Positions 40,801 through 63,885 of a stretch of 64,000 nt of DNA are shown piece after piece. Source of the DNA: Limnoperna fortunei (Eukaryota > Mollusca > Bivalvia > Mytilida > Modiolidae); the NCBI GenBank assembly GCA_944474755.1, contig OX104122.1:11604641-11668640 (forward strand), in the 5' to 3' direction. A program made the translations under genes and the position numbers. Positions within the stretch are counted from its first letter, which is position 1, and the number at the start of each line of letters is the position of its first letter. A model generated the notes under the pieces. It was not told where the DNA came from. It made no database searches and was given only the letters and a program-made list of their open reading frames with translations.

Positions 40801-42510
40801 TTAATAACTTTTAGAAAAAAAATATGTTGTTTTGATCCGATTTGATAATAACCGTTACTTATATTGAAATTTGTATATAACGTAACTGAATGAAACTTGT
40901 TTGAAATTACAAATCGTGATATACATACATACTACACAGCGATTTAAAAAAAAATTTGTGTAGCGGTACCAGATTTTTTGTATTACCTTTGAACATAGGC
41001 ACACAGCAACATTGAATATTAATAATAGATCCGTTGCAAGTTAACGCCAGAAAATATCAGATAATTGAAAAAAGAATGGATCTTTTAGAGAAAAAATGAG
41101 TAAACTGACAGGTTGAAAACCATTCAACAGTATTAATTTCACTAAGTTTCCGTCGATATTAATCTTATTAAAATTATATCTTTCACTTGCTCCAGGCCTT
41201 TTATAATTGTCACAAAATATGCTGTTCCGTTCCGTTCCGTTAATTACCGTTACCTATATAGCTTACGGTAATTAACGGAACGGAACGGAACAATGATATT
41301 TTTACAACATTTCATACTGTATTTACGGAGATTAAGGTTCTTTTAATTAAGCAGATGTTTATTTTAAGGCTTGTGGTGTGGGGTCCACATTAAACTATAT
41401 AAATGGATTCTCCTCATTTTTTGCAACAGTGTGCTAAGGAAAATAACATGCGGGTTCTCAACAGCTCTATATGCAAGGGCTAGAAACAAATATGTTGTTT
41501 TGATTCGATTTGATAATAACCGTTACTTATATTGGTATTTGTATATAACGTAACGGAATGAAACGTGTTTAAAATTACAAATCGTGATAAACATACATAC
41601 TACACGGCGATTTAAAAAAAAAATTGTGTAGCGGCTCCAGATTTTTTGTATTAACGCCAGAAAATATCATATAATTGAAAAAGAATGGATCTTTTAGAGA
41701 AAAAATGAGTAAACTGACAGGTCAAAAACCATTCAACAGTATTAATTTCACTAAGTTTCCGTCAATATTAATCTTATTAAAATTATATCTTTCACTTGCT
41801 CCAGGCCTTTTATAATTGTCACAAAATATGCTGTTCCGTTCCGTTCCGTTAATTACCGTTACCTATATAGCTAACGGTAATTAACGGAACGGAACGGAAC
41901 AATGATATTGTTTACAATATTTCATACTGTTATACGGAGATTAAGGTTCTTTTCATTAAGCAGATGTTTATCTGAAGACTTGTCCGCATTCTTCTGATTT
42001 TTTGCAACATTGTTTGCTGGCAACATACGGATTCAACAGCTCCACTTTTGCAAGGCCGATACACTCATACCGTAATAACTGTTAGCAAAATATGTTGTTC
42101 CGGTCTGTTTCGATAAAAACAGTTTCCCATATCGGTATAAGTATTCAAAGTAAAAATGGAACTTTTTTAATTACAAGGATAAACTCCCATATATATGGAC
42201 AGGAAGGTCCTTTAAGTAGACATGCTAATTTCCATAACTCCCAGTCTAGGATCCACATCCGCCTTAATTGATTGAATCGTAATACACGTCTATGTGCGTG
42301 TTGTTGTTTTTTTTGTGAAGCGTTATCATATTTCTTTAAAAACATCTCTTTACATAGCAGATGAATAAATGCATTCTTCTGAACATCGTTCTCTCTAGTA
42401 AATAACATTAGGACTCCCAAGGCCTTTAATAATTGTCACAAAATATGCCGTTCCGTTCCTCCCGTCATTATGGTTAGCTATATATGGGTAACGGTATTTA
42501 ACGGAACGAG
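37844..42510 (+). repeat. Tandem array of 0.6-0.8 kb units, each with a GTTCC/GGAAC palindrome
   Basis: Six near-identical palindromes of about 68 bp lie at 38345-38412, 39147-39216, 39849-39915, 40531-40597, 41224-41291 and 41833-41900. A GGAAC run (37844-37869) precedes them and a degenerate palindrome (42449-42508) closes the array. Each arm is three GTTCC pentamers plus 'gttaattaccgttacc' around a 'tatata' centre. Start-to-start spacing is about 802, 702, 682, 693, 609 and 616 bp. The unit bodies share 'gtggtgtggggtccacatta' and 'atgcgggttctcaacagctc'. No credible coding region. Confidence 0.85.
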
Positions 42511-43340: not shown

Positions 43341-45976
43341 TCAACTATATCCAAATGCATCTTGCAAAAATTTTCTGTGTGTTTCTTGAAGGTATACCCT
43401 TTCTGTATTTATTAGTCCAACCCAAAAGTATGGATGACGACTCAGTAAACATTCTTGTTTCAAACAATAATACTTCGCCCCCGTTTTCTTGTGCGTCGGT
43501 ATCCACTGAATCTTTCCATTATCATCTCTTTTTGGATATTTGTATCGTTCTTGGTGGCAAAAAATAATATCAAAAGGACTAACAGCGTTTCTTTTAGTTA
43601 TAGTACAACTACAGCTTGCACAAGAAATATTTTTTTTTGAATCTTGCAAGTCATGTATGTTAACGAGATAAAATGGTTCATCGTTATGCCAAATTTCGGA
43701 ATACTGAAACGGTCTTCTACTTTTAAGATCAATCTCTCTAACACTCTGTTCGTTTATGCTTATGTCAATTTGAATGGGACGTTTGGTTATGTTTTGTTGT
43801 CCTTTTCGAGGTTTTTTTACCCTCTTCTCTCCAGAAGAAGACGGTTTATGTCTGTGAATTGCAGTTGACGGACTGTATTTGTACCTTTGTAATAATACAG
43901 GAAGGCAATTTCTGTTGTCTGCAATCACTAAAACATGCGAACATATGTTAATCTTAATGAATCTTGCACAATTACACTTGAATTCATCTTCTTTTGCCTC
44001 TGTTACTATAAAGACATCGTTGTCTTCAATAATACAATGACTGCCGTTCTGCATGGTGGTAACTTGAAAATGCGATAGTATTATTTCAGCCCCGTCCCAA
44101 ACTTCTTGAATAAGTCGTAGTGGCAGTTCTGATAGACTATCTTTGCAGTCCTGTGGCTGAATTGTTAACTTTTTTGTTATCATGGGCGTATTTTGATTTG
44201 CCATCTTTGTCTTGCATTTTAAAACTCTGCTTGCATGATTAATTCTCTGGTCCTCAGACATTGTTTTCCACTGCAGTGGACAAATCTCAAAATGTTTGAA
44301 CCGAGGCGCCAACCTGTATTCTCCGTGAGAATAAATTGCTTTGACCAATTCCAATTCTTGTGGTTTAATGACATTTTCGTAAACGAGATCGTGGACTGCT
44401 GACTGATCTACAAAATCAGACCCAATAGACTCTTTTAATACGCTGTTAATTGCTTCTGCCCTTTGGTTGTCGTATTTATTGGGGGGGTTGCCTAAGCCTG
44501 CTGCAATCCTTGCATCTTTTCCCATGCATTTTAATAGAGTTTCTTTAAGTGGACGGATTTTTAGTCGTGTAGATAACATATAATGCTGGAATTCACTTGG
44601 CCATTTTCTTGACAGGGTTTCATACTCTTTTTCATATTCTGATGTTTCACAATCAACTAGCCCAGGTAATCTTCTGTTTTCATATTCTGTTCCAAGGATT
44701 GATGTTGTTATGGAATTGAGGTCTGATACGTTTATCTTTTTTAACTCAGCTAACAAGTCGTCTTTGACATGGTTAAAACACCTTAGCTTAATACTTTTTA
44801 GTCCTGGTGGCACGCTTTCAATGGGAAAAACAGCTTCCATTCCAAGCTCCAGAGCAAATTCACCATCAGTCCCATAAATCAATGTTTCTATTCCCCTTGA
44901 TTTTAATTGCGAGGCCAAATATAAGTAATCCTCCTTTTGTCTGCCAGTGCTGGTCATCATACAAGCTAAAAGAGTTGGATGCTTTTGTGGATCATCTTTA
45001 TAGACAAACATAGGATGTTGAAAACTCATGCATGTTGTGTAGAAGGGTCCTACTTTGTATGTCATATCAATTCCAAGTTGAGATTTCCATTCGGCTCCAG
45101 GAATACAAAATTGTTTTATCCACGTTAAAGTATTATCAGTAGCTGCAAACGTATTTGGATGAATTCTGTGGAATTTATCTCTGTTAGAAAAGTCAATGTT
45201 TTTTAGAAAATCGCCATTGTCCATAGAAGCTATTAGTTTGGAAAAATCTGGAGCGACGACCTTCCCTGTGTTTCTTACTTTGAAATTAATGCCATGATTC
45301 TTTTTTACATTATAAATCTGCTGACGGTCACGTGGTCCGTCGCTTACAGAATTATAACAATATGGTCCACCAGATTCCTTGTCTATTAAGTTTATAACTT
45401 GTTTTGGTGCTACCTTCCGAGCTAATTCACTTTCTTTTTCTAGTACTGATGGCTTAGTTCTTATGTAAATTTGTTGTTGCTGTTTTTTCGCATTTCCATG
45501 GGCCCGCAAATGACACTGTCTTTCTCCAATGTATTGGACAATAGCGAATTTGGCCAGTTTGTTCTTTGCGTATACCTTACTTATTATTCTTGTTGCCTTT
45601 CCTACTCCTTCTCTGTGATGTTCACTATACAGTCGTTTTACCTGGTAAATGTTTTCTTCATCAAGAATAGGATCGCCAATGTCGACCTTTTTTCTTGACA
45701 ATATTGTGCAACCTATTACTTTACCCTGTTTCAACGTTGCTCTAACAACAGCTGATGGGGAAGAATGTGTGGTATAAATACCAGAATCGTCACAACTGAT
45801 ATCTTTTACATTAATACATGACAAATCTAACACATAGACAGCATTTGTCCTAGGTGGCGGCACTCGTTTGCAGACCTTGATTTCATCAACTGTATCAAAC
45901 TGGCACAATGAAATTATTTCTTTAACGTCCAACCCTTTCTGTCTTTCAGTATATACAGGACAATGTGTTCTTGACC
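43341..45976 (-). CDS. Exon 8: MULE transposase, SWIM finger, Cys-rich tail
   Basis: The continuous frame reaches 46007, but the acceptor caaatttgttttag at 45977 gives the phase that exon 7 requires. It encodes 877 residues after the split Gly codon. Transposase core: GID1089MTY, GTD1156GEF, C1185FNH1188 (the C/H motif of MULEs) and AE1293AINSVLKE, a complete DDE set with usual spacing. The SWIM motif CNC...CSH follows at 1453-1466. The tail has CASCSC, FCHQ and CLKQEC, probably zinc-binding. No stop or frameshift interrupts the exon. Confidence 0.9.
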
Positions 45977-48571
45977 CTAAAACAAATTTGTCTTTGAAAT
46001 TACCCACCTATCAAATTTGACAAATATACAAATAACTTCTGGTAATCACGTTGCGTTGTCGTGTTTCAAACGATTGGACGTAGGATTTCCTTATATTTTA
46101 TCTGAACCTAGCATTTTCATAAGGCAAGTGTATTTTTTCGGTTTGTGATGCTATTTGTGTGTAGGTTTGTCAAGCTTACCAGCCATTTCAAGATCATTCA
46201 AACTTAGAGAGATATAGTACTCGTACAACCTGAAAGTTTACTTATTGTAGATTCTGTTTCCCAGCAATGATCCACTGAGGGGAGGGGACATTCTTAATCA
46301 TTTAAAGAGCTCTACGATTGTAATTAACGCAAAACCAACTTAACCTAAATTCCAGTATTTCTAGAGCCCTACAAATAAATATGGATATTTAGTGATCTGT
46401 TCCAATGAATTCTATAATTATGTTGTAGAGGTTTTGAAACCGAGTTATTTAAAAAGATCTATAAATAAATATCCTTATATAAATTTATGCATCCTTTGCA
46501 AACTGAGGTCGTTTTTAATAAAAAAAACTACTCATAGAATGTTTTTATTGGGGAGGAAGCTGGTGTATAAGGAGAAAACCCCGTCGTGCTCTTGGAAAAC
46601 TGGCAATCCTTGGCAATTAAGATTGGAGTCGAGTACACCCTGTGCGCAGTGAGACGAACCCGCAACCTCGATGTTAACAGGCCGCGTGGTAAATAGTGTA
46701 TGCATAAATAAGTTAAGAGGTCTTCACTCTAAATTATTTGTGTAATTGTCTGAATATTTGGAGGGTTATCGAAATATTTGAAGCTCTCTAAAATATTTGT
46801 AAAGATTTGCAAACATCTTTAAAAGTTTTTGTTGATCTATAGAAATACTTGAATTTATGTTAATTTAGCATTCCATATACACGTACGTCATTTTTAAAAA
46901 GTGTTTTGAAAAAAAATATTTAGTCAAAGTTGACAGTGTGGTCAGAAAAATTATTCTTGAAAATTGATATGAATTTAGTACATGAAGTATTTGACTTAAG
47001 ATCATTAATACTAAAAACTCGCTTCCTGTAATTGTGTATTTTGTATGTCAGTTGAAGGATACACATCATTTTACAATCGAAGAAAATTGACAAATGTTAT
47101 TAAGAAATTTGTGTTGTTTTCTTATTTTAATTGGAAATTGTAATGAAAAAGTAAATGTAATGTCAACTGACGATGTTATTTTTTGGGTAAATAATTTCGA
47201 AAATTTTTTACCTGTTGTTGATGACATAGACCTAAATGTTGAATCATTTTCTCTCAAGTGTGAAGAAATTTCATTCATATCCAATGTTTCTGTCATCAAA
47301 ACTTCTACGTTAATTGGAGATAAATCAATCTGTTGGTTTTCTTTGTCTGCAACTAAACTTTTTAGATAGGTTATCATATCGCTTGCTCTATCAAAATGCA
47401 AGATGCACGCTTTTCCTTTCGGGTCTATTAAACCAGAGCTGTTTCGTGCATGAGGGTCAAAAATACTGTATCGTCCATTGCTACCATATATAATAGATGT
47501 ACAGCTATCGAACATTCTTAATACAAAACTTTGTCCTGGTTTTTCATGCAGCGCAGACATGATAAGGTTCTCTATGTTCATAGCAAATCCATATATTACT
47601 TCGTTGGTAACCCCAACACTTGCCGTCACTTTCAAACTTTCAATTTGACAAGAAATAACACTTGGCAGTTCGTCCAAATCCAGTCTGGAATCGGACCTGG
47701 AATAAGGCCATCCTCTTTCTTTCAAAATTTTCAAATGAAGAATGTCTCCTTGTTTTAAGATGTTATCTATGTCATTTGGATTCCAATCATCTTTTGATTT
47801 TATCGATGAAACTATAACAGAAATAACACTTATCGTGCTACATTGAGTTCCTACTGCAGCGTGATTAAACACCTCTGGTGTTGCTTGGTGAAAATGTCCT
47901 GACACACAACTCATCATATCATCGACCTAAATTAAAGAAATTGTTGAAACTTTTATAGTATAAATATTACATGTTTAAAAATTTGGTATTAAGTTATTTT
48001 ATGCCAGTAGTAAATTCTGCATGTGTTTCATATATAAAACTTTTTTAAAAATTAATGTTTTGTTTTCAGAAACTGTAAAGCCGATAAAACCCATTATGTT
48101 TGCCAGTTTTTTTTATGAATATATACACAGCTTTTTGTATATGTTTTCGATTTGAAATCCAAGAAGATTAGTTTAAAATAGAACCCAAGTGAAAAGAAAC
48201 ATACATACATACATACATACACATACATACATACATCTATGAACTTTATGTATACATAAATAAATACATATGTATGTATGTATGTATGGATGGATGGATG
48301 GATGGATGGATGGATGGATGGATGTATGTATGTATGTATGTATGTATGTATGTATGTATGTATTTAAACTTTTATAGTATAAATAATGACAAGTTTACAA
48401 ATTTTGTATTACGTACGTACATACATACATACATTTCGCTAAAGATAGTCAATAATTGCTCGTATTGACAAAAAAATTAGGCTTAATTATGAGATGTGTA
48501 TAAATATTTGATATTAAGCCTGTTTTCGGATGCTTCAGACATCCACTGGATATATATTATATTGTTGTCAC

Positions 48572-48632
<61 letters not shown>

Positions 48633-51600
48633 TTTTATTTAATAATTTTTTTTTATTTATTTATACCAAGTTGCATGAGATGTTCGTTTTATTCATTGTT
48701 GCCAGGGGAATGGTTTGTACAGACGAAACTTCTTGCTCAGATGTCAAATACTTGTTCGACAATATTTGTGAAGAATGGGAATCCAATATATCATCCACGT
48801 TTGACGTTTGACCGGCCTTAAACATTTCCTCCCCTATGCAATCTTGACTGGAATCTTTCTGAAAACATTAAAAGTTCATTATTCAGAAATTTTTAAGATT
48901 ATTAGGAAAATATGTATTATTTTAACATTGTATTGTCATAAGTGCAGTCATAAGTATCAACGATAAACATGTACAAACAGATTTTTCTTGCGAATTAATT
49001 TCTCATTCTGAGACCACACTGGGAGGGTTCTCAGTGCTCGACCCCCAGAGAACCCTAGCGCGTCCCCAAGTGGCGGATAGGGGAGACCCTCTTGTTGGGG
49101 GTGTTGTCAGGTAATAATACGGAAATCCTGGCCGCGGACCGTAGTGGATAAAGTTTTAAAAGAGTGCCCTACTCCTTGCACTATAAAGATTTTTTGTAGA
49201 TTTTGAAACAGAGTAGGCTCATTGTAGCCGCTACAAAAGGCTTAATTCTCCGCCCCTTTCCAATGCTCCATACTATTCCAGTTGCAGGTAAAATGTTGTC
49301 CCCTCTGTCCCATCCCACCCTTTTCTCTGTTATTTTATTGTTTGTTGTCTTGCCCTTGTCCTAAATTTAGCGGAAATATTGCTCGCTAGACTAAAGCAAC
49401 CATCCAATCAATCAATTATTTTTTTTCATATTATTTTGGAAATATTGATTGTAGACTATTCCTTCATCCAAGATTAATATTACAGAAAAAGACTATCAAT
49501 TTACCCCTATTTTGATGTAGGGTTACTTATCGTGATATTAAATACTTTGTTACCTTAAGCACAGTAGTAATGTAAAGTATTTTTGTTAATTTTGCATATG
49601 CGGATACCTTGTATGGTATCTTCTGACTTTCTTTGGTTGGCATGTCATATTGCGCTTCCTGATTATTTTCCGCCACTATATTATTATTTTCGTTATTACT
49701 TTCTGTCTGAAATAGAAATATAAAGCAAGTCTTAATTTATATTAGGGATCTGTACATGAACGATTTTGGTGGTCGTTTATATAATTTTTTTTTTAAAACA
49801 TAAATGGAAAATGATCTGTATTGTTCATCAAATATATCATAGATTGCATCATGGAATGCACTGGTCAAAAATGCTCTCACTTACAATACTGTTTTGATAG
49901 AAACACACTAGAGGGTCCTAGAAGCCGAAATCGCTCGACTGAACCTGAAACCAACTGAACAACTATGCAGCCTTTATTTCATTGGAAATGTCCAACATTT
50001 CTGCAAAAATCATTAATTTGGTGGCATTAATACTTATCTTGAACTTGATGAACTGAATATTTTTGTATATAAAAGATTTTCTCTATAGCTCATAGTTTCC
50101 ACGAATTTTGACGAATTAAAGGGGCAATAACTATTATAAGGTGTAGACACACATCTTCACACATATTTCTTGAACTATAAGCATAGAAATATTTCTTTTC
50201 TCTATTTTTAGCAAAGGCAGCCATGTTGAGTCGGGTATCATGATTTGTGCAATTTTGGTAGAGGACTTCATGAAGATGATGTGTACAATGTTTTAAAGAC
50301 GTCTTATTAGTGGTTTTAGACCAGAAAATTTTGATTTAAATTGACTTAATAACAATTCAAGGGAAATCAGAAAATCTTTACCCGAAGTGATTTTTTGTAG
50401 CTCTCATATAGCTAAACAATTTAGTTATGCTAACTTTTTCTCTACTTCTAATTACTCAAGATTTTTACGGGAAAATTGTAAAAACCATCAATTTTGACGA
50501 TTATGTGACAATTACTCCTACAAGGGTCGTCGAACAACTTTGACGAATGAAGAGTTTTGTTGAGCTATTGATACAGAAGAAGGAATGTCGCTTTAGTTTT
50601 CCTGTATCGGTTATACTTTTTGAACAATAAAAAAAAAACTTTATTTTGACCTCCTGTTTTATTTTTAGCCAAGACGGCGATGTTGGTTGGCCTGCGGTCA
50701 TGATTTGTGTAATCTTGGACTGATTATGTCTGCAAAGTTTCAAGAAGGGTTTTAAGGGGATGCAGGACACCATCCGGCATTTTTTTGAAAATTTCAAAAT
50801 AGATAGAACAATTATGGTAAATATTTGATAATTTCTTTCGTTATTTCTTTCTTAATTTCAATAAAATTTAAAACGACAATGAAAGTCTTGTAGCTATATT
50901 ATTACTTCAATTTATTAATGGTTTTCGCTTAAATGAGTTTATTATTGGCAAAAATAATGAAAATGGAATTTTTAAAAAAAGGGATGTAATTTTGACCACA
51001 AAATACCATTTTTTAGCACTTTTTGATTAGTTTTTGCCCAATTGACAAAAAGTAAACTCAGAGACTCCTATTTTTCTTTCCATCACTAAAATGTATAACA
51101 ATTGCTTGACATTATATCAAAAATTTCGAAAATTTCATTTGACAGAATTTTTGTTATCTTTTATTTTAGTGCTTTTTTATTCTCGTCTCTGTATAATCTA
51201 TATGAAAATTTAAAATTTCAGTGCTCAACCACTCGAAAATAAGCTCTGAAACCCCTATTTTTTTTAATTATGATAACTTGTATAAAAAACTAACTACTTG
51301 GCGAATTTAAAGAAATATCATTGAAGAATTGTTTTCAGAAAAAGTGTCCTGCATCCCCTTAAAGAAACATTACGACGACAACGACTGACAAAGACGACGG
51401 ACGCCAAGTGATTGCAATAGCTCACGGCGAGTTAAAAACTTGTTTCGAAATTAATGAGGCGTTGTAGAGATATTTCACATTTATACTGAATACATATTTC
51501 TAGCACAGATTATTACCATTAAGGGCAACAATTGGAAAGGTAAATACTACATGTCAAAAATTATTCATCGGAGTATATCTACCACAGATTCAGTATTCCT

Positions 51601-54600
51601 TCCCGAATTCTCTGTTGATTTTGTATTTGAGGACAATTCAAAATACATCTCCTGTGATTCCTTGTTCTCAATTACGAGATCATCTCTTTTAATTTCACTA
51701 TTCATTAACGGTTTGGACTGAAATGAAAAAATATTCAGTATTATTATCGACAAGGCAAATATTTTATAAATAGCATCTTCCTTAACATAATTTACTTGTG
51801 GGCCACTCAGTTTTTTTAGGATTACACATTAATTTTTATCATCGTACGGTGTATGTTAGCGTTAATTTCGTTAAAAAGCAGATCAGACGATTTCAAGACA
51901 AAGTCATGTTATTTTATTAATAATCATTGCTATATTGAGTGATAGGGTGTACATATTTTTATGCGGATCTACCACATGAATTTGGGTCCATTCGAGCTGT
52001 AATCTCAGACAAGATCATTCGTTTTTTTAGAAGAAATCGAATTTGCAAATTTCTCTTCATTATTCAACAGTTAATATGAGAATTATGTAGCAGTTTTGTC
52101 CTTTGCACATTTCTTAATACATCGTACATATCTCATGTACACTCTAAATAATAAGAAATGTGGTTGATTTAAAGACAAAAATACAACCAATAATTACATG
52201 CGCCTTGCTTCGACATATAATTTCTTCTCAGTAATGATCAAATCAAACAGTTTAGATTTCTCAATAAATCAGTAGATACATATGCATAATACAAAAAATC
52301 TTACCAAGAAATTACAAACCAAGGGTCGACATAAAATTTACTTACACAAAAAGGAAACTAACAATCAAACAACAGATAGGGCTAATTTTTCCAGAACAGT
52401 TAGAAAGGTCTTTCTCATGATTCCTGTAATTAATTAATTTTTCTACATCATTCTGTTGTTTTGAACATGACTACATATTTTGCTGGGATATATTTTGGGC
52501 GGAATATACTATTTTTGTGGTCCTGAGTAAGATAATACATGGTTGTCAAGGACTTTTTTGGCCGTTGCATTACGGTACAGCATCATGATTTAAAAAATAT
52601 ATGGTTGCTAAGGACTTTTTTAATTGGGCTCAAATTGAAGGCCTTGACTTGGTGATCATGTTGAAAATGTATGTTTACTATATTATCTCTAACCGTTTAT
52701 ATGCAAAAAAATGATTAACCGAAATGATTCAAGGGCTGTAACTCGAAAACGGTTCATCGAACAATTTCGGACTAAATGTAACAAATGAGGGTCTTGATGG
52801 AGGAGTATATTTCCCTTTATTGTTTTCTTCTTTCTTTATAGTGTTTGAGTCGTAATTATAACAAGATTAGAGGCCTAAGGTCGAGGTCACTTCTGAACTT
52901 TGAATTTTCTTTAAGCACATGTCACTGGATGACAAAGGTTGAAGATCTCAGGTGTTTTCGACTTTGTGACTTTTTGTGATAAGCTCAGTCCTTGGAACAT
53001 GCAAGGTATACCGCTCGTCTCCGCTAGTCAGAACTTTTTAGCCAAATTATGTCATAAAGTTGTCTCAAAAGTTCCTTAACATTTGTCACTTTTCAGTCGT
53101 CTCCTATGTGTTATATATCCAGGATATTTGGGCAGATAACCCTTTAAAGAAAAACGTTTTTTTATTTTACAGGGTGAATTCCGAATAGACTTTCAGTGCC
53201 GAAAACTGGTCGCGAAAGACCAAAAAGATATGTACTTTTTAAACCGTTTGGTTTTGAAAGTTGGCGGAAAAATAAATAATCCAAGCAAAAACAATAACAT
53301 ATATCCTGTTAAAATTGTGACACCTACATATAACTTAAGTTAATAATCTTAAAAGCCACGTTTTTTTTACATATGAATCTAAGGATAACAATTCTGGTGA
53401 TCAGAAGCAAACCTACCAGATTCCATTGTTTAAAACTGCTTTTTTGAATTAAAGTAGGCCAATCTTAATACCTGCCTCAGAATATAGTAAATAATCACTT
53501 CATTTAAGTCTAATATAATATGATTAAACACCGTGCTTTAGGAAATTATCAATGTGTAAACTCCGGCGACTCAATCACAAACTAAATGACTTTATGCCAA
53601 GCATGTGAGGGAGTCAACGGAGTTTACACATTCGTAATTTCCTAAAACACAGTTTTAATTCTTATAATTCTCATAAATAGTCATTGTGATGTTTAAACCT
53701 GCAAAACCAGTTACAGAAATCCATCTTGATTTGAAAATGTACCAAAGCAGGAAAACGTTTGAATATACAAAACATAGTACCAAAGGAACATCGGTTCTGT
53801 ATATATTAATTGCAAAAACAACAATATGAAACACAATTTTTTATATATATTATATTTTATTTAAAATCTCAATCGATTTAATTAAAAATCATTAGGACAG
53901 ACAAAACATTGTTCCCTATTCCTTACTATACGCTAGCGGGGGACGCCATCTTGTTTATATTGGATACCGAAAGTAGTTCCCTTAGAGGAAATATCGATTT
54001 ATAAATTTTCTGAAATTTATATTCATATAGTGTTTTCATCCAATTAAAGCAATTAGTATACATAAATTACAGCATGAATAAAATTATTTACCTTTACATC
54101 TGTATTGCTACAGCTCTGCTCCTTTCTTTCTGTTTCAGTCAAGTTAACTTCAACTGTGATCTCATTTTCGTTTGATTCGGAATCTTAGAAATAAATAGAA
54201 GTTGCCCTTATTCGTAGATTTACTGACTAGTATATCAACTTATTAATCATAGTCGCTTCTTATAATTGACCTTTGTTCATTTGTCTTAAACAAACTTTAT
54301 TTCTATATATTTACGGACAAGTTTATACCACCCTCTCCCAAATATAGTAATGCATTTATGTTCATTGCTGTCATTAGTGCATTGTGCTTATTAATTACAA
54401 GTATATTTTTTCATGTTACAAGTAATACATTTCGATACCCGCATGAAGTATTTGCTATACTTATTTATTAGATTTACTTATCATAATATTTTTTAGAAAA
54501 CAACTACCAGGAATCATTTCATAAAAAATCTCAAATTTAGGGGATTACCTAAAATTATCTTCAACACAGATATTGACCAATCAGTTTATATAAATTTGAA

Positions 54601-57600
54601 GAAAATATTAAGGATTAGAGGAAAATCTCAATTTGAGAACTTTTAGCCCGGGCCTGTACATATTTATAGTTTAGTTTTTATACCCCCGATCGACAGAGTC
54701 GGGGGTATATAGTGGTCCTCATGTCCGTCCGTCCGTCCTTCCGTCCGTCCGTCCGTTCGTCCGTCCACATTTGGTTTCCGGATGCTAATTCAAAAAGTTT
54801 ACATCCAATTTGAATGAAACTTTGGGATATTGTTATATATCAAGTTGGTAAGAAGCCTATTGATTTTGGGGGAAATCCGTCAAATTTCAAGGTCACAGTC
54901 CACGAAAAACGTTAGAAATTTTAACAAAAAAGTTGTTTCCGGACAATAACTCAAAAAGTTTACATCCGATTTGAATGAAACTTTGGGATATTGTCATATA
55001 TCAGGTTGGTAAGAAGCCTATCGATTTAGGGGGAAATTCCTCAAATTTCAAGGTCACAGTCCACGAAAAACGTTAGAAATTTTTAGAAAAAAGTTGTTTC
55101 CGGACGATAACTCAAAAAGTTTACATCTGATTTGAATGAAACTTTGGGATATTGTCATATATCAGGTTGGTAAGAAGCCTATCGATTTTGGGGGAAATCC
55201 CTCAAATTTCAAGGTCACAGTCCACGAAAAACGTTAGAAATTTTTACAAAAAAGTTGTTTCCGGACGATAACTCAAAAAGTTTACATCTGAGTTGAATGA
55301 AACTTTGGGATATTGTCATATATCAGGTTGGTAAGAAGCCTATCGATTTTGGGAGAAATCCCTCAAATTTCAAGGTCACAGTCCACGAAAAACGTTAGAA
55401 ATTTTTACAAAAAAGTTGTTTCCGGACGATAACTCAAAAAGTTTACATCCGATTTGAATGAAACTTTGGGATATTGTCATATATATCAGGTTGGTAAGAA
55501 GCCTATCGATTTTGGGGGAAATCCATCATATTTCAAGGTCACAGTCCACGAAAAACGTTAGAAATTTTCACAAAAAAGTTGTTTCCGGACAATAACTCAA
55601 AAAGTTTGCATGTGATTTGAATGAAACTTTGGGATATTGTCATATATCAGGTTGGTAAGAAGCCTATTGATTTTTGGGGAAATCCGTCAAATTTCAAGGT
55701 CACAGTTCACGAAAAACGTTAGAAATTTTTACAAAAAAGTTGTTTCCGGACAATAACTCAAAAAGTTTGCATCCGATTTGAATGAAACTGTAAAATATTG
55801 TTATATATTTTGTTGGTAAGAAGCCTATTGATTTTGGTGGAAATCCATCAAATTTCAAGGTCACAGTCCACGAAAAACGTTAGAAATTTTCACAAAAGCG
55901 GGCGTATCAGTGATCACTAGATCAACTTTGTCTAGTTTTAGTACATGCATTTAAAATTTTTTTTTAAAAAGAATGTCAATGTAGTACTGAAACTAAAGGT
56001 GGAGTCTGATTGCCGACATGGGTTCGGTATACAATTAACTTAGTCATTTGATTGGATCACCACCGCGAGAACACTAAGATTGCGCGATCTAGCCGTACTA
56101 CATGCAGTATCTGCTCAACTCCAACTATACATGACAACAAGTATTACAAGTTTTCCTGCTGAAATGCAGGAGGTTTACAGTGTATACCGCCTTCATCGCC
56201 CAATAAAAACTAGACGCCATGATCACGATATCTGCAAAATTGCTGAAAGAGGCGTAAAACTCCATTTAAACAAAAAAACTCTGAATACTTATTAGTACCA
56301 TTCTTACTTAATTATTGGACCTACCTGTGACATAGTCTGCTTTATTTAAGTTTAACAAGTCTGAGAACAAATTCCTGAAAAGAATTTTTTGAGGTTCACC
56401 ATTAGAAGTTATTAATTAGGAGTTTGTTTCTCAGTGTATATGTTTGTAGAGCTTTTATATTTTCTCTCAGAACATTTAATATTATGCATGAAGTTCATGG
56501 ATTGGAACATGTAAGTTGGTGTCACCTTTTTGCTACAACCCCACAATAGTATATCATATATGATTCCTATCCCGTTACTTATACTCTCAGTGTATGGTGT
56601 GTTCTTGTAATCTCCTTTGCACGCATACTACGATATAGGCCGAATTTTACCGCTGTTATTATCCGATGTTAGTTTTGTGATTTGTAGGATTAACGTTGCC
56701 AAAAAAGAGAGGGTACGATTATTCGTTCTAACTACGGTAGTATTCTTACTGATTTTGTTTGTTTTAATTTATTACAGCTTTTTGTTTGGTTAATTAATTA
56801 CATGCTTACCTACGGAAGCCCTTAGTGCCATGCTGTGTTTTATTTTTAAGTCGTTATAATGACTTACTTACTAGTTATAACGACATAGTTACTGGTTTTT
56901 AACGATTTGGTTACTCGTTAAAACGACAGCTTACTCGTTATTGTGACTTAGCTTAATCGTTAAAGCAACTTAAATTACTAGTTATAACGACTTAGCTTTT
57001 CTTCATGCAGTTGCATATCTCCATATGATGTACTTCCTTCAAGTAAAGTTTCATCAAAATCTATTAATGGGTTTAGGAGGAGTTGCACTTAAGAGTTAAG
57101 GGGACATAATTATGTTAATCTTAAAAAGATTTAGGTAGGTTGTTATAACGAGTAAGTTAGTCGTTCTAACGAGATACTGAGTAGTTATAACGAGATACTA
57201 AGTAGTTATAACGAGTTACTACATCTTTTTATAACGAGTTACTAAGTCGTTATAACGAGTAACTAAGTCATTATAACGAATAAGTAAGTCATCATAATGA
57301 GTAAGCTAAGTCGTATAACGAGTAAGTAAGTCGTTATAACGAGTAACTAAGTCATGATAACTAGTAACTAAGTAATCATAACGGGTAAGTATAGATCGTT
57401 TTAACGAGTAAGTAAGTCGTAATAACGACTTAAAAATAAAACACAACATGGCCCTAACGAACTTACGTACTTACCTCTCTCTTCTATCTGGTATTTTTTT
57501 CAGAAAAGATAAGATGTTTTCTATATCTGGCCTGATGTCAAATTTGGCACACAAATTGTAAACTTGTACTGTCTCTACCCAGTGGGTTCTTCTTTGGTTT

Positions 57601-58547
57601 TCATATTTCAGACTCTGAATAGGAAGCTGTTGTTTATAAAATAAGTCTTTCAACACTTCTGTTGCAGGCCTAGGATTATCGCATTTTGTCTCATTGGCAT
57701 ATTCCAACTGGTACGGATATCTTAAATCTGGGTTAAGAAGCGCAAATAAAATCATGGAATACGACCAAATATCCATTCGTTTAAGATCGTTTAAATTCAT
57801 TTGCGTTCTTCCATCGTGAAGAAATATTTCGGGTGCCATATATGCCGGTGTTCCTCTATATACATTACTAGTCCTGGTGTGTATGAAGCTACCCGTTTGT
57901 ACCAGCCTAGCTCTACTTTCCCCGAAGTCAGTTAGTTTTGCTATTACTGGTTTTTTAAACCAAAGTGTACTAAGATCTGTACTTTCAGAACAACAATAAT
58001 GTTGATTGGAAACTAGAACATTTTCAGGTTTAAGGTCTCTGTGAGCTATGTTATTTTTATGAAGGTATGCAAGTCCGCCACAAACGTCTGTAGCGATAAA
58101 TTTCTGCAAGTGTTCAAATCCTTCACTGTCATAGTTGTCTACAAATTTTAGAAGATCTTTCAATGAACATGCCATGAAATCCTGACCAAAAGGTTTAAAA
58201 TCAAAGTAAACGTATTCCATTAAAAATCCCACATTACCGGTATCGTTCGTGTCGCACACGCTATCGAACTTTACTATATTTTCATGGTTTAACATGTGTA
58301 AAACTCTAGCCTCTTTAATAAATAAACGCTTACTAGCTTCATCTTCTACTATCAGCTCTTTAAGCACCAATTTTCTCTTTTTTAACTCGCACAAAGATAT
58401 GTGTCCGTAACTGCCGCGTCCTATGGTCTTTATCCTTTTAATTTCACTCGGACTACTAAGAGGCAATCCATCTGTCAGGTCTCTTTTTTCAACAATGCCA
58501 GCAGCCCGTTTCCGAGGAGGTAACAGCTTAGGTAATTTAAATGACAT
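43341..58547 (-). CDS. Kinase - C76-like protease - MULE transposase fusion gene, 8 exons, 1663 residues
   Basis: Eight minus-strand exons (58547-57475, 56374-56325, 54183-54092, 51717-51583, 49706-49608, 48858-48667, 47926-47212, 45976-43341) have GT/AG borders, and all seven junctions agree in codon phase, giving 4992 nt with stop. Domains: protein kinase about residues 36-355 with complete catalytic motifs; Asn/Ser/Glu-rich linker 358-547; protease-like domain about 555-740 resembling the herpesvirus tegument N-terminal family (peptidase C76 deubiquitinases), with Gln561, Cys576, Asp704, His706; MULE transposase with Asp1089, Asp1156, C1185xxH1188, Glu1293; SWIM finger C1453xC1455...C1464xH1466; Cys-rich tail. 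A phosphorylating, ubiquitin-cleaving and DNA-cleaving protein in one chain is my inference. It could be a transposon gene or a domesticated host gene. No signal peptide; nuclear action expected. Two adjacent genes is the alternative, but the phase chain argues against it. Confidence 0.75.
46545..46690 (-). mobile_element. Partial SINE, family A, minus strand
   Basis: In intron 7 of the fusion gene. The reverse complement carries 'ccaagagcacgacggggttt'-like and 'ggattgccagttttcc' body landmarks plus a decayed tRNA-like head. Confidence 0.6.
47212..47926 (-). CDS. Exon 7: C76/tegument-type cysteine protease-like domain
   Basis: Acceptor ctttaatttag; 238 codons plus one base to the donor ACAACAG|GTAAAA. 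Motifs: HFHQ (Gln561), GTQC (Cys576), DDWNPNDIDNILKQGD, DELP, and IFDPHARN (Asp704 and His706, two apart as in this protease family), followed by GKACILHF. The order GxQC ... W..xDID.IL..GD ... FD.H.R..G is that of the Herpes_teg_N/C76 fold. Reading past the donor continues open for about 45 codons, so intron retention would still make protein. Confidence 0.7.
48190..48440. repeat. Compound ACAT / ATGT / GATG microsatellite
   Basis: (ACAT)n at 48200-48235, then (ATGT)n, (ATGG)n and (ATGT)n at 48270-48362, then (ACAT)n again at 48413-48433. The opposite orientations can form a hairpin. In intron 6. Confidence 0.9.
48474..48575 (+). repeat. Fragment of the SINE-B tail
   Basis: Resembles the 3' part of the element at 58796: 'gtataaatatttgatattaa' then 'ctgttt', 'tgcttcagac' and 'actggatatatattatat'. 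No tRNA-like head. In intron 6. Confidence 0.5.
48576..48663 (+). repeat. (TTTA)n tract
   Basis: About fifteen uninterrupted TTTA units and then a T-rich decayed part, ending next to the exon 6 donor. Confidence 0.9.
48667..48858 (-). CDS. Exon 6: linker
   Basis: Acceptor taatgttttcag and donor ACTTG|GTATAA. Exactly 64 codons, phase 0 on both sides. A long (TTTA)n tract begins only a few bases past the donor. The plus-strand frame here is a shadow. Confidence 0.7.
49010..49432 (-). repeat. Dispersed family C, minus-strand copy, uninterrupted
   Basis: In intron 5. Landmarks: 'ctgggagggttctcagtgct', 'gtggcggataggggaga', 'ggccgcggaccgtagtgg', 'tgtagccgctacaaaaggct' and a terminal 'atccaatcaatcaatt'. 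It serves as the empty-site comparison for the SINE in the 23.2-kb copy. Confidence 0.65.
49608..49706 (-). CDS. Exon 5: Asn-rich linker
   Basis: Acceptor tttctatttcag and donor ACAAG|GTATCC. Exactly 33 codons, phase 0 on both sides. Starts TESNNENNN, echoing the composition of exon 3, so linker exons may have arisen by duplication. Confidence 0.7.
50100..51440 (+). repeat. Dispersed 'ggcaataactcctacaaggg' repeat, interrupted by a MITE
   Basis: In intron 4. A diverged first unit ('ggggcaataactatta', 'ggcagccatgttgagtcggg') is followed by a second ('caattactcctacaagggtc', 'ggcgatgttggttggcctgc', 'gcaaagtttcaagaaggg') that resumes after 51359 with 'aaacattacgacgacaacga' and 'gccaagtgattgcaatagct'. 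Confidence 0.5.
50756..51358. mobile_element. 603-bp MITE with TTAA target duplication
   Basis: Begins GGGGATGCAGGACAC and ends GTGTCCTGCATCCCC, with TTAA on both sides (50752-50755 and 51359-51362). The interior is AT-rich and non-coding. TTAA duplications point to the piggyBac or Kolobok superfamilies. Confidence 0.75.
51583..51717 (-). CDS. Exon 4: linker
   Basis: Acceptor ttttcatttcag and donor CTGTG|GTAGAT. Exactly 45 codons, phase 0 on both sides; Ser/Asn/Glu-rich with no recognised motif. Confidence 0.7.
53524..53658. mobile_element. Fold-back element
   Basis: Arms of about 48 bp (53524-53572 and 53611-53658) are reverse complements with several mismatches, around a ~38-bp loop. In intron 3. 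Confidence 0.65.
54092..54183 (-). CDS. Exon 3: acidic linker
   Basis: Acceptor atttctaag and donor AAAG|GTAAAT. 92 nt (two bases plus 30 codons), ending in phase 0. Rich in Glu, Asn, Thr and Ser. Confidence 0.75.
54679..55935 (+). repeat. 161-bp tandem array headed by a hairpin and CCGT run
   Basis: A TATACCCCCGA/TCGGGGGTATA hairpin (54679-54709) is followed by (CCGT)n (about 54724-54766) and then seven units of about 161 bp starting near 54768, 54932, 55093, 55254, 55415, 55578 and 55739. Each unit has 'tttccggacgataactcaaa', 'gaaactttgggatattgtca' and 'caaggtcacagtccacgaaa'. It ends 'gatcactagatcaact'. In intron 2 of the fusion gene. Confidence 0.85.
56055..56285 (+). mobile_element. Decayed SINE, family A
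   Basis: 'caccgcgagaacactaagat', 'aagttttcctgctg', 'cccaataaaaactagacgcc' and 'aaaattgctgaaagaggcgt' match the family in order. Ends about 40 bp before exon 2 of the fusion gene. Confidence 0.55.
56325..56374 (-). CDS. Exon 2: 50-nt linker exon
   Basis: Acceptor attcttttcag and donor ACAG|GTAGGT. It takes one base to complete the kinase exon's last codon (Arg), reads NLFSDLLNLNKADYVT, and leaves one base, which exon 3 completes as Asp. Its length is what reconciles the phases of exons 1 and 3. Confidence 0.75.
56818..57455. mobile_element. Fold-back element built from GTTATAACGAGTAAGTAAGTC units
   Basis: Left end GTGCCATGCTGTGTTTTATT and right end reverse-complement GGGCCATGTTGTGTTTTATT are terminal inverted repeats. 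The arms are tandem variants of an ~20-bp unit with ACGAG, TAAGT and TCGTTATA. It fills much of intron 1 and ends about 20 bp from the kinase exon donor at 57474. Confidence 0.75.
57475..58547 (-). CDS. Exon 1: Ser/Thr protein kinase domain
   Basis: Starts MSFKLPKLLPPRKR with a basic N-terminus. Kinase landmarks: Gly-loop G43RGSYG48, ATP Lys63 (LVLKEL), helix-C Glu79, catalytic H169RDLKPEN176, D207FG209, GTPAYMAPE ending at 240, and D259IW. All are intact, so activity is expected. HRDLKPEN and GTPAYMAPE favour Ser/Thr specificity, perhaps TKL-like. The exon ends in phase 2 at the consensus donor AG|GTAAGT. A possible acceptor (attttag) five bases before the ATG suggests an upstream non-coding exon. 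Confidence 0.85.
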
Positions 58548-58552
58548 ACTGT

Positions 58553-58795
58553 CTAAAATATAATTATGAGTATATAATTGTTAATTTGGACATAGGGTTC
58601 GAAACCTGAATCGTAATTGTATTTCTGCAATTATAATATTTAAACCCATTAATCCCTACACAACATACAGGTGTAGTGGATCATCGAGTTACGGTAAATG
58701 TTCGAGTTAGTGTTCGTTTTAAAATTCGTGTTGGAATTCAAATTTCGAGTTCGAGTTGGAATTTGAGTTTTATTTTGAGTTGATCATAAGAGTTA
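58553..58795. other. 5' flank of the fusion gene
   Basis: No TATA box could be assigned. A run of ttcgagtt and gagttgg motifs at about 58690-58790 is mirrored (reverse complement) at 60655-60720. Confidence 0.35.
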
Positions 58796-59080
58796 CGATT
58801 AACCCCAGTTAATGAAGCTATATTTTTATATAGCGGATTTGGCCGAGGGGTCTAGACCGCTGGACATAGTGCAGGCGAATTGGTGCCACAGTGTCACAAC
58901 GGTGTAAGTTCGAATCCCGCTGAGTGAAAGCAAAAATTTGACAGTGTTAAAAATCTAATTCTAACAGTGTTGGGCTTAATTTGTAGACGTATATATAAAT
59001 ATTTGATATTAACCCTGTATTTCTGATGTTTCAGAAAACCGCTGGATAAATATATAATATGGTTTTCACAATACTTAGAC
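58796..59080 (+). mobile_element. tRNA-headed SINE, family B, copy 1
   Basis: Head with box A TTGGCCGAGGGGTCT and box B AGTTCGAATCCC, like class II tRNAs, preceded by 'gttaatgaagctatattttt'. Body: 'gcaaaaatttgacagtgtta', 'gggcttaatttgtagacgta', then a tail shared with 48474-48575. Confidence 0.7.
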
Positions 59081-59224
59081 GTTTGTATATAATTACTTAC
59101 TGTGACTGTATGACAAGTAACTTTGTCATCCTATATAATGTATACAAAAAATGCTGAAGTAGATTAATACTTATTGGTTACGAAAATTCCATCGTCACAC
59201 GCTAGTACACATGTGCTATATCTA

Positions 59225-59411
59225 CGATTCACCCCGGTTAATGAAGCTATATTTTTATATCGCGGATTTGGCCGAGGGGTCTAGACCGCTGGACATAGTG
59301 CAGGCGAATTAGTGTCCCAACGGTGTGAGTTCGAATCCCGCTGAGGTAAAGCAAAAATTTGACAGTGTTAAAAATCGAATTCTAACAGTGATGGGCCTAA
59401 TTTGTAGACGT
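59225..59411 (+). mobile_element. tRNA-headed SINE, family B, copy 2
   Basis: Same head and body as copy 1, about 430 bp downstream in the same orientation, with a shorter anticodon-region spacer and an earlier 3' end. Confidence 0.7.
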
Positions 59412-61047
59412 ATAATGTAGTGTAATGCTTAAGAGACACCAGTGTTTTTTAATATCGTTAACGTTGATTTAAAAGATCGTTTTGAATTCAAAATCGTTGA
59501 ATGTTGGATAAAAATATTTTCAAATTAATTAATGTAAATGTATAAATATGTATCATAACATTCCTTTAGAAGATGAGAACTACTTCTCATCGGATTTTCA
59601 AATCAATAAACAAATACGATACAACGTGTTGTATAATTAAAAAGCTATTTCAGATTTAAAAAAAACAACCTTTTATTAATTTAAAAAAGGATGAACCAGT
59701 AAAATACAGTCTTTGTTCTCAAATGTGTAGCAAGCTGTACGGCCGGTACGGTTCGAATCGTACCACTTTAAATTTCAGGTACGGAAACCGTACCAGTTTT
59801 TTTGGCAAATTGAAATAAAAAATGATAGAATTTCATTACATATACTCTGTAATTTGTGAAACGTAAAACATAAATATATACTTTTTTTAATAACTTCAAT
59901 ATATAACAGCAACCGCTACGATCTCGAGCGCAGTTTGGCAAGTGACAAATACTTGCACAAGGAAACCCCCATTCGCGGTAAACGGGTTAACGACCCTTAA
60001 CTGACCGTGCCACTTTTTGTCTGGGTGCTACGCCTATGAAGATGAAATGAGGTGCGCATCGGCATGTGTGTGACATGTAGTAATTTTACGTTATGTATTG
60101 TGAACGGTGTTGCTTTGATTTGATTTGATTTGTATCTGTTTTCTTTTTATTTTTTTTTCAATTTATTTTACTATAGCTTTATTACAAAGAACATTCCAAT
60201 AATAATAAGAAAGTTGCATTTAAACCCTGAGAAGATGAGGGCACAAGAGTCTTTTACGGGCGAAAGGAGGGCAATATCAGGCTTTAGTAAGCCTCAACAA
60301 TAGAGTGTACAAGTTAGCAAAATAGATAGGTTGTTTATTCTTTAATAGTGCATCAACATACAAAAAAATTTAAGCCTGATCCACGGGTGTGGATATTAGG
60401 CTGTCCCAGGGGTAAATACCTCAAAATACAATGTTTAATTGTACCTTAAAATATCTGGTAAAACAATGCATAGAAAAAATAACAATATTCTTAGTTGTGA
60501 CCTATAAACAACAGTCCGAGCCTATGAAAGACGAAAATTAAAACATAATCCGGGGCAAGAAATAATCTTATCTGATTCCTGTTGAAATAACTGTTGGCAC
60601 TTTGTACCGAACATGCGTGTTTTTATAAGACACGTTTTTATTTGGATCCAAAAATATTGGAAATCCAACTCGAAGTTGAAATCAAACTCGAAGTTTAACT
60701 CGAAATCTAACTCGATTATCTACAACACCAGATCGCACTGTAAAGTTTTATTTGTTATAGAGAGAACTCAATTGTGATTCGATGATATTAAATTTATATT
60801 TTGATAAATTAACGCTTTGAGTAATAAAGCACGATTTTATTAAAGGTTTGCATCATTTGGAATAACATTGATCTGGTTATGTTATTTAGTGGACTTGTAA
60901 TATTTTTCTGAGGATAGGGCCAATAATAGGCGATTCTATATTTTTTAGCAATCTCTTTGCATTGTAAATATTAATTTTAAATTTCTTCCCCCGCTGTAAC
61001 TTGGTAAAACATTTTTTGGAAATATTGATTTGATCTGAATGTTATTT
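59412..61047. other. No gene seen
   Basis: AT-rich intergenic sequence. Contains repeated 'aactcgaa' motifs at about 60655-60720 but no supported exon. Confidence 0.4.
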
Positions 61048-61293
61048 TAACGCCACTTTCAGCAATTGTTCAGCTATATCAAGGCGTCCAGTTTTTATGG
61101 GGGGGGGGGGGGGGGGACCGGAGTACACGGAGAAAGAACCCCGACCTGCGGTAGGAAAACTGGCAATCCTTTTCAATTAAGATTGGAGTCCAGTACACCT
61201 TGTCTGAAGTGAGAATCGAACCCGCAATCTCAGTGTTGACAGACCACGTGATCAATAGTAGACGAACTACCTTAACCACTCGGCCACCGAGCG
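61048..61293 (-). mobile_element. SINE, family A, minus-strand copy with homopolymer runs
   Basis: Near full-length copy. An 18-base G run (61099-61116) interrupts the body where other copies have 'ctcccccaat', and a 14-base C run (61294-61307) abuts the tRNA-head end. Confidence 0.8.
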
Positions 61294-62205
61294 CCCCCCC
61301 CCCCCCCTACCGCCAGGAAATAAACAAAACACCAAATAAATATCAGTAATAATAATATCAGTATATTTGTTATTTCATCTTTTCATCATTTGCAATTACT
61401 TTTTGATAAATACATTTGTAACTTGCTTGTACTGAAATTACATGTGTTTATTTGTTGCAAAGTTTCGAAAAAGTTTGTTCACCACAAAATTCTGCTTAAA
61501 AAATCTTGTCACTCCGCTGATTATAAGCCGGAAAAATATTAAATGCCCTTAATTACCTCGTAACTGCAAGATATCATTTTGTACTAACGAGATGTCTATC
61601 TCGTAATTTTGAGATAACTATCTCGTTAGAACGAAATATTATTTTGTTATAACAAGATCGTTTGTCTAAGTTCGTTTCCAGTGCCTTTATAAAATCACAT
61701 ATCAGTTTAATTTAGTACAGTATGAAGCAAGTAAACTTATGCTTCTTTGCATATAAAGCTTAAAAGAAGATATCACAGATGGAAACTTCTACCCCTAATT
61801 AAGAATAAAATAATTGCAGCTTTGTAAAAAAAACAGCACTATGGGCGATTTGCGTGAAAATTTAATTTAAGCATGCGCGAGTAAGCATACATATAGTTTG
61901 GATATGGATACCCTGACATCTAATTGTGAAAAGCTACACCATAAAGGCTAAATTAAATGTGTATGAAAAAATTGTTACTTTTGTTTCTTTTACAATTACA
62001 AAAGATGAAATTGCTAGTTAGGTTAGCACAAGAAAAAGTAGTCATCAAAACGGTTAATTACTTACCTCAATTAATTTTCAACGTGTATCCAAACAAATAT
62101 GAGTTAAATTTGTTGGAGCTTGTTATACGTTTAGTTAGCTAGATATTGTATTAATGGGATTACGAATTTCTGATGAAGTCGTTTGATATACGCCAATATA
62201 CACAG
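61294..62205. other. No gene seen
   Basis: A short 'ctaacgagatgtctatctcg'-type inverted motif lies at about 61590-61660. Otherwise nothing supported. Confidence 0.35.
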
Positions 62206-62270
62206 CGGGGTGTAGCTCAATTAGCAGCAATACTCCGTTACTATTTAGGATTTTATGTCCTCATAAACAA
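62206..62270 (+). other. tRNA-like 5' half, probably a SINE relic
   Basis: GGGGTGTAGCTCAATTAGCAGC resembles the D-arm side of an Ala-type tRNA with a box A, but no T-arm or box B follows. Confidence 0.25.
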
Positions 62271-62569
62271 GTGTCATTATTTGAAAGAAGATAAACATAG
62301 GATCCCTTTCACACAGGTTTCAGTTTTCAAGTCATTTATATATGGTACCACCTTCACATCCCTGATTTACCTTAATGTCAATGCTAACGCTCTTGCACTT
62401 AAAAACTCTTGAGAAGATTCACAATGATAACTAGTATTACTGTTTGTAAATAACAAGTGAAAAAATAGTCTTAATATAAATTATTCTCTTTTTAATTAAT
62501 TCTTTTAGTTTTTTTGTTTACACAATTCCTCCATATTATTTCGATTTCTGATGTAAGTCGACTCCCGCT

Positions 62570-62595
62570 CCCCCCCCCCCCCCCCCCCCCCCCCC
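62570..62595 (+). repeat. C homopolymer, 26 bases
   Basis: An uninterrupted C run directly visible in the sequence. Confidence 0.95.
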
Positions 62596-63409
62596 ACAAA
62601 TACAAAAAACGACTAAAACCTTACAAAAATTACGGATAGTCATAAAAGAAAAAGATTTGTTGACTAATAAAAAAAACATAACATAGCCACTAATACATTA
62701 ATTTCAGTGGTTTTAATTTAATTAGAAAAATTAAGACATTGTGTTACAAATCAAATAAAATATTAAAAAATAAGATGCCAGTAAGCACTAGTATTCAATT
62801 TTTTATACACCATTAAGCTCTCATACAAGTTATGACAAGTGAAGTTCGTGTTTAGTATAATTTTAATCGATATAATACTGCTACGAGCTTTGTGTAATGT
62901 ATAATGTTTTTTAGTTTTTTTTAATTTGTTTGTTTATTTAGTTTTGTTTTTCCAATAGTTTATTATTTCATTGATAATATTAATGAAATAATATCCTATC
63001 TTATTTTATTATTCCTATATTGTTTATGCGCAATCTGAATTGCTACTGTGTCGTCTTGAAAGACGTTCATAAGGAGTAGCAGATACAAAAGTATGACGAG
63101 ACACCTATTACTATTTACCCGATTTAATTCAATGTCAAAACCAAGGTTTAACTTAATTTACACATGTGTTCCACTAGAGCATACCAGTTATACCAACTTG
63201 TAAAGACCTTGTGATTCTTGTATAAAGTTTTCAAAGCAAGTGGGCAATCTCCACACCTCAGAAATACCCAAGAATACTTTAAACTACAAAATAGATATGA
63301 AACGAATTATTTTATATATAAGAATCTGCAATATATATTTTAACCATTATATTTGTTTTTAAAATGTGCAATATGTATTTATTTTCTGTGTCTGTCTGGA
63401 TGTGTATTG
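62596..63409. other. No gene seen
   Basis: AT-rich, no supported feature. Confidence 0.4.
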
Positions 63410-63411
63410 TA

Positions 63412-63787: not shown

Positions 63788-63885
63788 ATCAAATTCTAGC
63801 AAGTGGAAACCTGATTCATATGTTTATTTTTTTTTATTTGTTTGTTATTTGAGTTATAACCATTTATTGTAAATGTGTTTACACT

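Follow-up and report, generated by a model that had tools for sequence, protein, structure and literature searches.

Introduction

Cut-and-paste transposons usually carry little besides a transposase and its DNA-binding parts. MULEs, as described in the main text of Dupeyron et al. (2019; PMC6446971), encode a DDE transposase, often with a SWIM zinc finger, and have terminal inverted repeats (TIRs) and target site duplications (TSDs) of 8 to 11 bp. That text names the clades MULE-Cg and MULE-Mollusca and extra domains such as the ovarian tumour gene in MuDR-6_HM, SET, and FAR1, and it contains neither the word "kinase" nor the word "protease." Complete MULEs of 1.4 to 10 kb are given in an arthropod survey (PMC13359780), whose available text, like that of a survey of bivalve transposons (PMC10294476), mentions no "kinase," "protease," or "peptidase." MULEs with extra domains (PMC6446971) and Mutator/Foldback elements (PMC3169594) are already known. 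No title or abstract start in the open-licence literature was found to describe a kinase or a VTD attached to a MULE transposase.

The window, the whole stretch of 64,000 nucleotides of Limnoperna fortunei DNA analysed here (C12:11604641-11668640), contains, we judge with good confidence, most of one intact copy of a Mutator/Foldback-type transposon. Its products would be a distant MULE transposase joined to a VTD-type deubiquitinase and, encoded upstream on the same strand, a kinase that may form the N-terminus of the same protein. Like the MULEs of PMC6446971, the element has a putative DDE transposase, SWIM residues, TIRs, and TSDs in the 8- to 11-bp range, but the TIRs reported there reach up to 640 bp, whereas here we find terminal arrays of ∼4 kb in an element of 41 kb with nested insertions. 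It resembles Tm1, a Mutator/Foldback element of root-knot nematodes (PMC3169594), in composite TIRs with internal tandem repeats and a Mutator-type transposase, putative here, as well as in its TSDs (mostly 8 to 10 bp in Tm1) and non-autonomous relatives. The Tm1 repeat units, however, are about 14 bp, compared to ∼600 to 800 bp with palindromes in this element, and "kinase" and "protease" are absent from the available text on Tm1. Galileo, a Foldback-like member of the P superfamily (PMC3688188), also has long, internally repeated TIRs, which in Galileo hold several transposase-binding sites, but its transposase is of the THAP-domain P type and its abstract mentions no accessory enzymes. The deubiquitinases of Helitrons and Helentrons (PMC9741609), described from hosts that include molluscs and active on ubiquitin in vitro, share with this element a VTD with Cys and Asp-x-His residues inside a transposon protein. 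In those elements, however, the VTD is part of a rolling-circle RepHel protein, whereas here it accompanies a DDE transposase, and the main text of that paper contains neither "MULE" nor "kinase."

The element and its ends

The three-part gene sits within an intact Mutator/Foldback-type transposon of 41.2 kb (41,238 bp), bounded by perfect 8-bp TSDs and running from window position 37827 to 15 kb past the window end (Table 1). The sequence-only reading had missed this location of the gene inside a repeated, TSD-bounded transposon. DNA comparisons showed that similarity to other loci extends far beyond the gene and stops on both sides at one type of repeat array, in opposite orientations. Both outer ends of the element are GGCTATTGGTAATTTGCGGAACGG, each flanked by AAGTAAAT, and in each array unit a variant of the terminal motif occurs as two inverted copies that form a palindrome. 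The partner of the left array, in inverted orientation, lies at extended coordinates 75276-79064, 11 to 15 kb beyond the window end. Long, internally repetitive inverted termini are present, as in Foldback-type elements, and so are terminal inverted repeats, which in MULEs are often long. On first inspection within the window no convincing simple TIRs were seen near the gene, since it is separated from the ends by 5.5 kb and about 20 kb, with the right end past the window.

With up to one mismatch, the terminal motif occurs 22 times within the window element and not at all in 42.8 kb of fetched flanks; the TSD-bounded elements on C13 and C3 contain it 14 and 13 times, respectively, and their flanks (26.3 and 27.0 kb) not once. 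Perfect 8-bp TSDs were found at three of five loci, those where both ends were found: AAGTAAAT on C12 (the window), CGTACTGC on C13, and TTATTATG on C3. A TSD of this length is not exclusive to MULEs, as hAT and P elements can also make TSDs of about 8 bp.

The length of the element is partly due to nested insertions, including a LINE with endonuclease and reverse transcriptase domains that precedes the right terminal array past the window end. This LINE (L029:2459-7614, extended coordinates about 66.5 to 71.6 kb) has an endonuclease and reverse transcriptase open reading frame (ORF) of 1180 codons and an upstream ORF of 547 codons, both open.

Table 1. Coordinates of the element, its predicted exons, and related loci (window positions unless a contig is named)
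Feature	Coordinates	Strand	Remarks
Left TSD copy, 8 bp, AAGTAAAT	37819..37826	.	Right copy at extended coordinates 79065-79072, beyond the window
Left terminus (GGCTATTGGTAATTTGCGGAACGG...) and terminal array	37827..42508	.	Units of ∼600-800 bp, a palindrome in each
Exon 8: MULE-like transposase	43341..45976	-	D/D/E, CxxH, and SWIM zinc-finger residues; Cys-rich C-terminal part
Exon 7: VTD/C76 deubiquitinase-like protease domain	47212..47926	-	PF04843 match
Predicted linker exon 6	48667..48858	-	Open; splice sites kept in two other copies
Predicted linker exon 5	49608..49706	-	Open; splice sites kept in one other copy
Predicted linker exon 4	51583..51717	-	Last 95 of 135 bases and weak donor in one other copy; acceptor not covered
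Predicted linker exon 3	54092..54183	-	Absent from the four other loci fetched
Predicted linker exon 2	56325..56374	-	Open in one other copy, which retains AG and GT but has the last base changed
Exon 1: complete protein kinase domain with catalytic motifs	57475..58547	-	Strong donor, GTAAGT overlapping an in-frame TAA
Rest of element within the window	58548..64000	.	Kinase 5' flank, SINE-like insertions, (TAT)n run at 63892-63966
Copy with both ends	C13:11852996-11872745		19,750 bp; TSD CGTACTGC; exons 5 to 8 and a portion of exon 4, with some breaks
Copy with both ends	C3:68204495-68217445		12,951 bp; TSD TTATTATG; internal deletion, part of exon 8 retained
Rearranged copy	C3:55485276-55497189		Kinase, exon 2, exon 6, protease, and transposase parts; termini not found
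Fragment without ends	C13:10740004-10741114

Transposase and protease

Exon 8 has no Pfam match of its own. We aligned it with 33 homologues, which include proteins from Mytilus galloprovincialis and Clytia hemisphaerica. Five of these 34 sequences have a weak match to PF10551 (MULE), with a best E of 0.0063, and other transposase families gave none; eight, the window exon not among them, match the Pfam SWIM family at E values up to 0.1. In ungapped rows the acidic triad is nearly invariant (D314 in 32/33, D381 in 34/34, and E518 in 32/32), as is the CxxH after the second Asp, and the residues CxC..CxH are present in 29/29; we take these to be the D/D/E triad and the SWIM finger by the usual motif rules. 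The weak profile matches and these rules hint that the transposase is a distant MULE. Solved structures gave no convincing match to it, and plasmid records, viral contigs, and prokaryote genome contigs held no relatives.

Exon 7 scores 29.2 bits (cutoff 25; E 8.7e-7) with PF04843, the Pfam family of the herpes-tegument N-terminus. A profile of six protease sequences matches the crystal structure of a Helitron VTD, 8ADD (E 2e-11), as well as large tegument proteins of herpesviruses (E 0.00029 and 0.0044). Q28, C29, and H159 are present in all six aligned sequences and the Asp in five, with Asn in P0037. By its sequence, exon 7 would therefore encode a deubiquitinase of the VTD (herpes-tegument-like) kind in which the Gln-Cys and Asp-x-His residues are in place. 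Asp-x-His is the arrangement described for VTDs, whose Helitron-borne members cleave ubiquitin (PMC9741609). The genome has 63 protease matches, four of them in copies of the element and one, on C14, 54% identical; nearly all others are 20 to 31% identical, and many of these sit in open frames of 1,800 to 2,992 codons, which we infer to be Helentrons.

The sequence-only reading had proposed one gene joining a kinase, a C76-type protease, and a MULE transposase. The association of the three stands, as one pair of ends encloses them all and pieces of each recur in a second, rearranged copy. So does the protease-transposase fusion, which has relatives with both domains in one protein and is well supported; the kinase as part of the same polypeptide is possible. 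A precomputed assignment places PF04843 together with the transposase in 3 of the 33 homologues. When these were rescored, P0017 passed the Pfam cutoff (26.0) and the other two fell below it (18.1 and 19.8), with Gln, Cys, and His still aligned. By our reading, P0031 appears to align through the exon 7/8 junction (THCPVYTERQKGL versus TTCPVNREKCLVM). The joined protein of 1663 residues, used as a query, returned five kinase-domain proteins, none with a protease or transposase, in a search with thin word sampling that also missed P0017 and P0031 of the same database.

At C14:15491401-15493741 (15.49 Mb), a diverged relative has a VTD piece (54% identity) followed 1.8 kb on by a transposase piece (54%), on the same strand and in the same order. 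Among the matches listed there (114 of 171 candidates scored) we found no kinase.

Copies and derivatives in the genome

Several near-identical pieces of exon 8 lie elsewhere in the genome (1.335 Gb in 285 contigs) among the 51 of 212 candidates scored. We examined four further loci, two of which have both ends and their own perfect TSD. The rearranged C3 copy seems, on our reading of its coordinates, to have undergone an internal inversion. Of the loci seen, none but the window copy has all three domains complete.

Allowing up to two mismatches, termini were found 81 times in forward and 91 times in reverse orientation genome-wide, and a reversed-pattern control gave none. The 40 exact termini in the terminus listing form 13 pairs. 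At least three of these pairs contain exon-8 matches (51 of 212 candidates scored) and at least one, the window copy, contains a kinase match (114 of 171 candidates scored); the remaining paired ends look like non-autonomous derivatives. A variant terminus, with GGTACTTTGC replacing GGTAATTTGC, has 70 exact occurrences that form 29 convergent pairs spanning 318 kb, or 0.024% of the genome. One variant-end pair of 40.7 kb, C3:57600866-57641582, has no kinase, protease, or transposase among the matches listed and is possibly a full element of a second subfamily or two unrelated ends.

The kinase

The kinase domain of exon 1 matches PF00069 (E 3.4e-34), with the glycine loop, the catalytic Lys, and the HRD, DFG, and APE stretches at residues 43, 60, 169, 205, and 238 of the joined protein, as we assign them by the usual motif rules. 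A genome search, in which 114 of 171 candidates were scored, listed 36 kinase matches. Four are close copies or parts of them: the window, the rearranged C3 copy (96% protein identity to the window kinase), and a third copy represented by two pieces. The tail of the C3 copy accounts for a fifth match. Another 17 are remnants that cover residues 37 to 125 at 53 to 60% identity, each with a stop. The remaining 14 comprise a diverged piece at C9:47907585 (49% over 53 residues), which lies outside any variant-end pair, and 13 generic kinases of 28 to 40%. Besides the copies and remnants, no other kinase in the genome exceeded 40% identity over more than 60 residues among the candidates scored. The third close copy, C3:55597765-55598798, lies about 100 kb from the rearranged one.

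All 17 listed remnants fall between paired variant ends, and 17 of the 29 pairs contain one. One such derivative, L036, read whole, is bounded by a perfect TSD (GTTTATAT) and carries a kinase remnant between inverted terminal arrays. Upstream of the remnant there is a short kinase-like start (MAFKIPKLWPPGKK versus MSFKLPKLLPPRKR, 9 of 14 residues), a weak match (E 0.056). The first half of another derivative, L037, carries the same remnant. In the variant-end derivatives, the kinase is a relic carried by non-autonomous expansion. The kinase was thus most likely present in the element family before the two subfamilies separated. We are highly confident that the transposon has the kinase as a component. 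Chance adjacency of the kinase and transposase, also considered, was ruled out by the copies and remnants.

Selection on the exons and the gene model

Compared with four other loci, the domain exons gave pN/pS values of 0.31, 0.46, 0.33, and 0.18 (one-sided Fisher P values of 0.0007, 0.014, 0.009, and 0.03, which are not independent because every pair includes the window copy). Relative to the C13 copy, exons 7 and 8 diverge by 0.85% and 0.66%, compared to 1.65% for the noncoding DNA of the same stretch. The kinase has a pN/pS of 0.35 between two copies, from 12 changes only (5 synonymous and 7 nonsynonymous). The domain exons are under purifying selection. No constraint was detectable on the linker exons by either measure: their pN/pS values of 0.73 and 1.29 are indistinguishable from 1, and their divergence from the C13 copy (2.0 to 3.1%) is not below that of the introns (1.79%). 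Exon 3 was not found in the four other loci fetched. Neither stops nor indels interrupt the linker exons where these are present (386 bp in the C13 copy and 242 bp in the C3 copy), which hints in favor of the linker model.

The eight minus-strand exons proposed from the sequence could be reproduced with their phases, with all introns GT..AG and a single terminal stop after 1663 residues. The compatible phases themselves, which had been offered as support, carry no more weight than chance: the interval between exons 1 and 7 holds 1678 open AG..GT intervals (30 to 250 bases; each phase counted separately), and the two exons can be connected by ∼10^47 phase-compatible chains. The five linker exons are therefore predicted from splice-site plausibility and partial conservation.

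Alternative readings

That the kinase, protease, and transposase form one polypeptide as modelled has, in our estimate, just under an even chance. We give the same weight to two genes in one transposon, a one-exon kinase ending at the TAA and a separate protease-transposase gene starting at the exon-7 ATG, with the enzymes acting in trans. The TAA overlaps the donor of the kinase exon, so the kinase could end there, and the unconstrained linkers, the unreplicated exon 3, and the sheer number of possible exon chains fit two genes as well. So does the exon-7 ATG, which lies near the protease core, where the homologue P0017 starts with MADFHQAS. The C13 copy has lost 5 bp just inside the exon-7 acceptor, which disrupts the frame coming from exon 6 but leaves the ATG in frame with the protease, although this copy is otherwise broken. 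A single spliced protein, on the other hand, is favored by the strong donor of the kinase exon, which is kept in the C3 copy, by the acceptor before exon 7, and by exon 2, which in the C3 copy retains its AG and GT even though its last base has changed. Exons 2, 4 (in part), 5, and 6 are also free of stops and indels in the copies where they are present. Behind the exon-7 acceptor stands a Val-Asp that is matched by Val-Asn or Val-Asp upstream of the core in P0031 and P0037, which hints at a conserved upstream exon.

Two further readings concern what the attached enzymes are for. A captured kinase could ride in the MULE without functional link, as in Pack-MULEs; MULE gene capture is well known (PMC6446971 and PMC8277862, in the text available), the activity of this kinase is predicted, and variant-end elements keep only a remnant with a stop. 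We consider such passive cargo unlikely in view of a kinase found in two subfamilies, with every listed match of 53 to 60% identity inside element ends, of its retained catalytic motifs and its low pN/pS (in two copies, with the few changes given above), and of the lack of any comparable kinase elsewhere among the candidates scored. Still less probable is a domesticated host gene, in which the transposase and its attached enzymes would now serve the host. Purifying selection on the domain exons would fit it, as would the presence, among the matches listed, of just a single copy with all three domains complete, but a working transposon should also show selection between its copies, and the window copy has intact ends and a TSD. 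The idea of a domesticated regulator, raised from the sequence before, is likewise disfavored by the several copies of the element, three with perfect 8-bp TSDs, and by the many paired ends that resemble non-autonomous derivatives.

Proposed working of the element

In a mobile transposon of the kind we favor, the transposase would bind the motif GGTAATTnrCGGAACGG, which occurs at each end and as palindromes throughout both terminal arrays, pair the ends, excise the element, and duplicate 8 bp of the target on inserting it. It would also act in trans to mobilise deletion derivatives that share these ends. The repeated TIRs of Galileo hold multiple transposase-binding sites (PMC3688188, abstract), which leads us to infer that the terminal arrays may be amplified sites of this kind. 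The deubiquitinase would prevent ubiquitin-dependent degradation of the transposase or of a host factor, for repair or chromatin, recruited to the ends. Protection of the transposase or of an attached host factor is the role we find most likely, and it is the one suggested for Helitron VTDs (PMC9741609). Self-stabilisation and modification of host factors had both been suggested from the sequence; with the VTD biochemistry published in that paper, deubiquitination is probably the better-grounded half of these ideas. The kinase would phosphorylate the complex or a host factor and so control activity or timing, and our preferred guess is that it regulates the transposase itself.

At its fullest, this reading has a cut-and-paste transposon making its transposase, its own kinase, and its own deubiquitinase as one polypeptide, a self-contained post-translational control unit, with the kinase in the family before the two subfamilies split; we put this forward tentatively, at somewhat less than an even chance. 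A kinase and a deubiquitinase kept under selection suggest that phosphorylation and ubiquitin turnover of transposition complexes decide the fate of the element in its host, and the element could serve as a system for testing such control of transposition. With this element, the range of VTD deubiquitinases grows beyond rolling-circle elements and herpesviruses to include a putative DDE transposon family whose transposase has homologues in Mytilus and Clytia, which bears on the origin of this enzyme class.

Other features of the stretch

Intron 2 contains a 161-bp tandem repeat in seven copies (window 54774-55897), which is also found at C1:64594176-64594933. Dispersed SINE-like repeats, tRNA-like by eye, lie at 46541-46697, 56070-56279, and 61036-61298 and are matched in several of the fetched loci. 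A search with window 51500-54300 returned itself and dispersed repeats nested in introns, among 40 of 5815 candidates scored, a sample that missed the known exon-4 match on C13. Outside the element, at 1367-3973 on the plus strand, there are open frames of a probable host gene with RD repeats, GMMGNQ-type repeats, and a C-terminal RGG stretch, which we take to be perhaps a WDR33-like RNA-processing protein.
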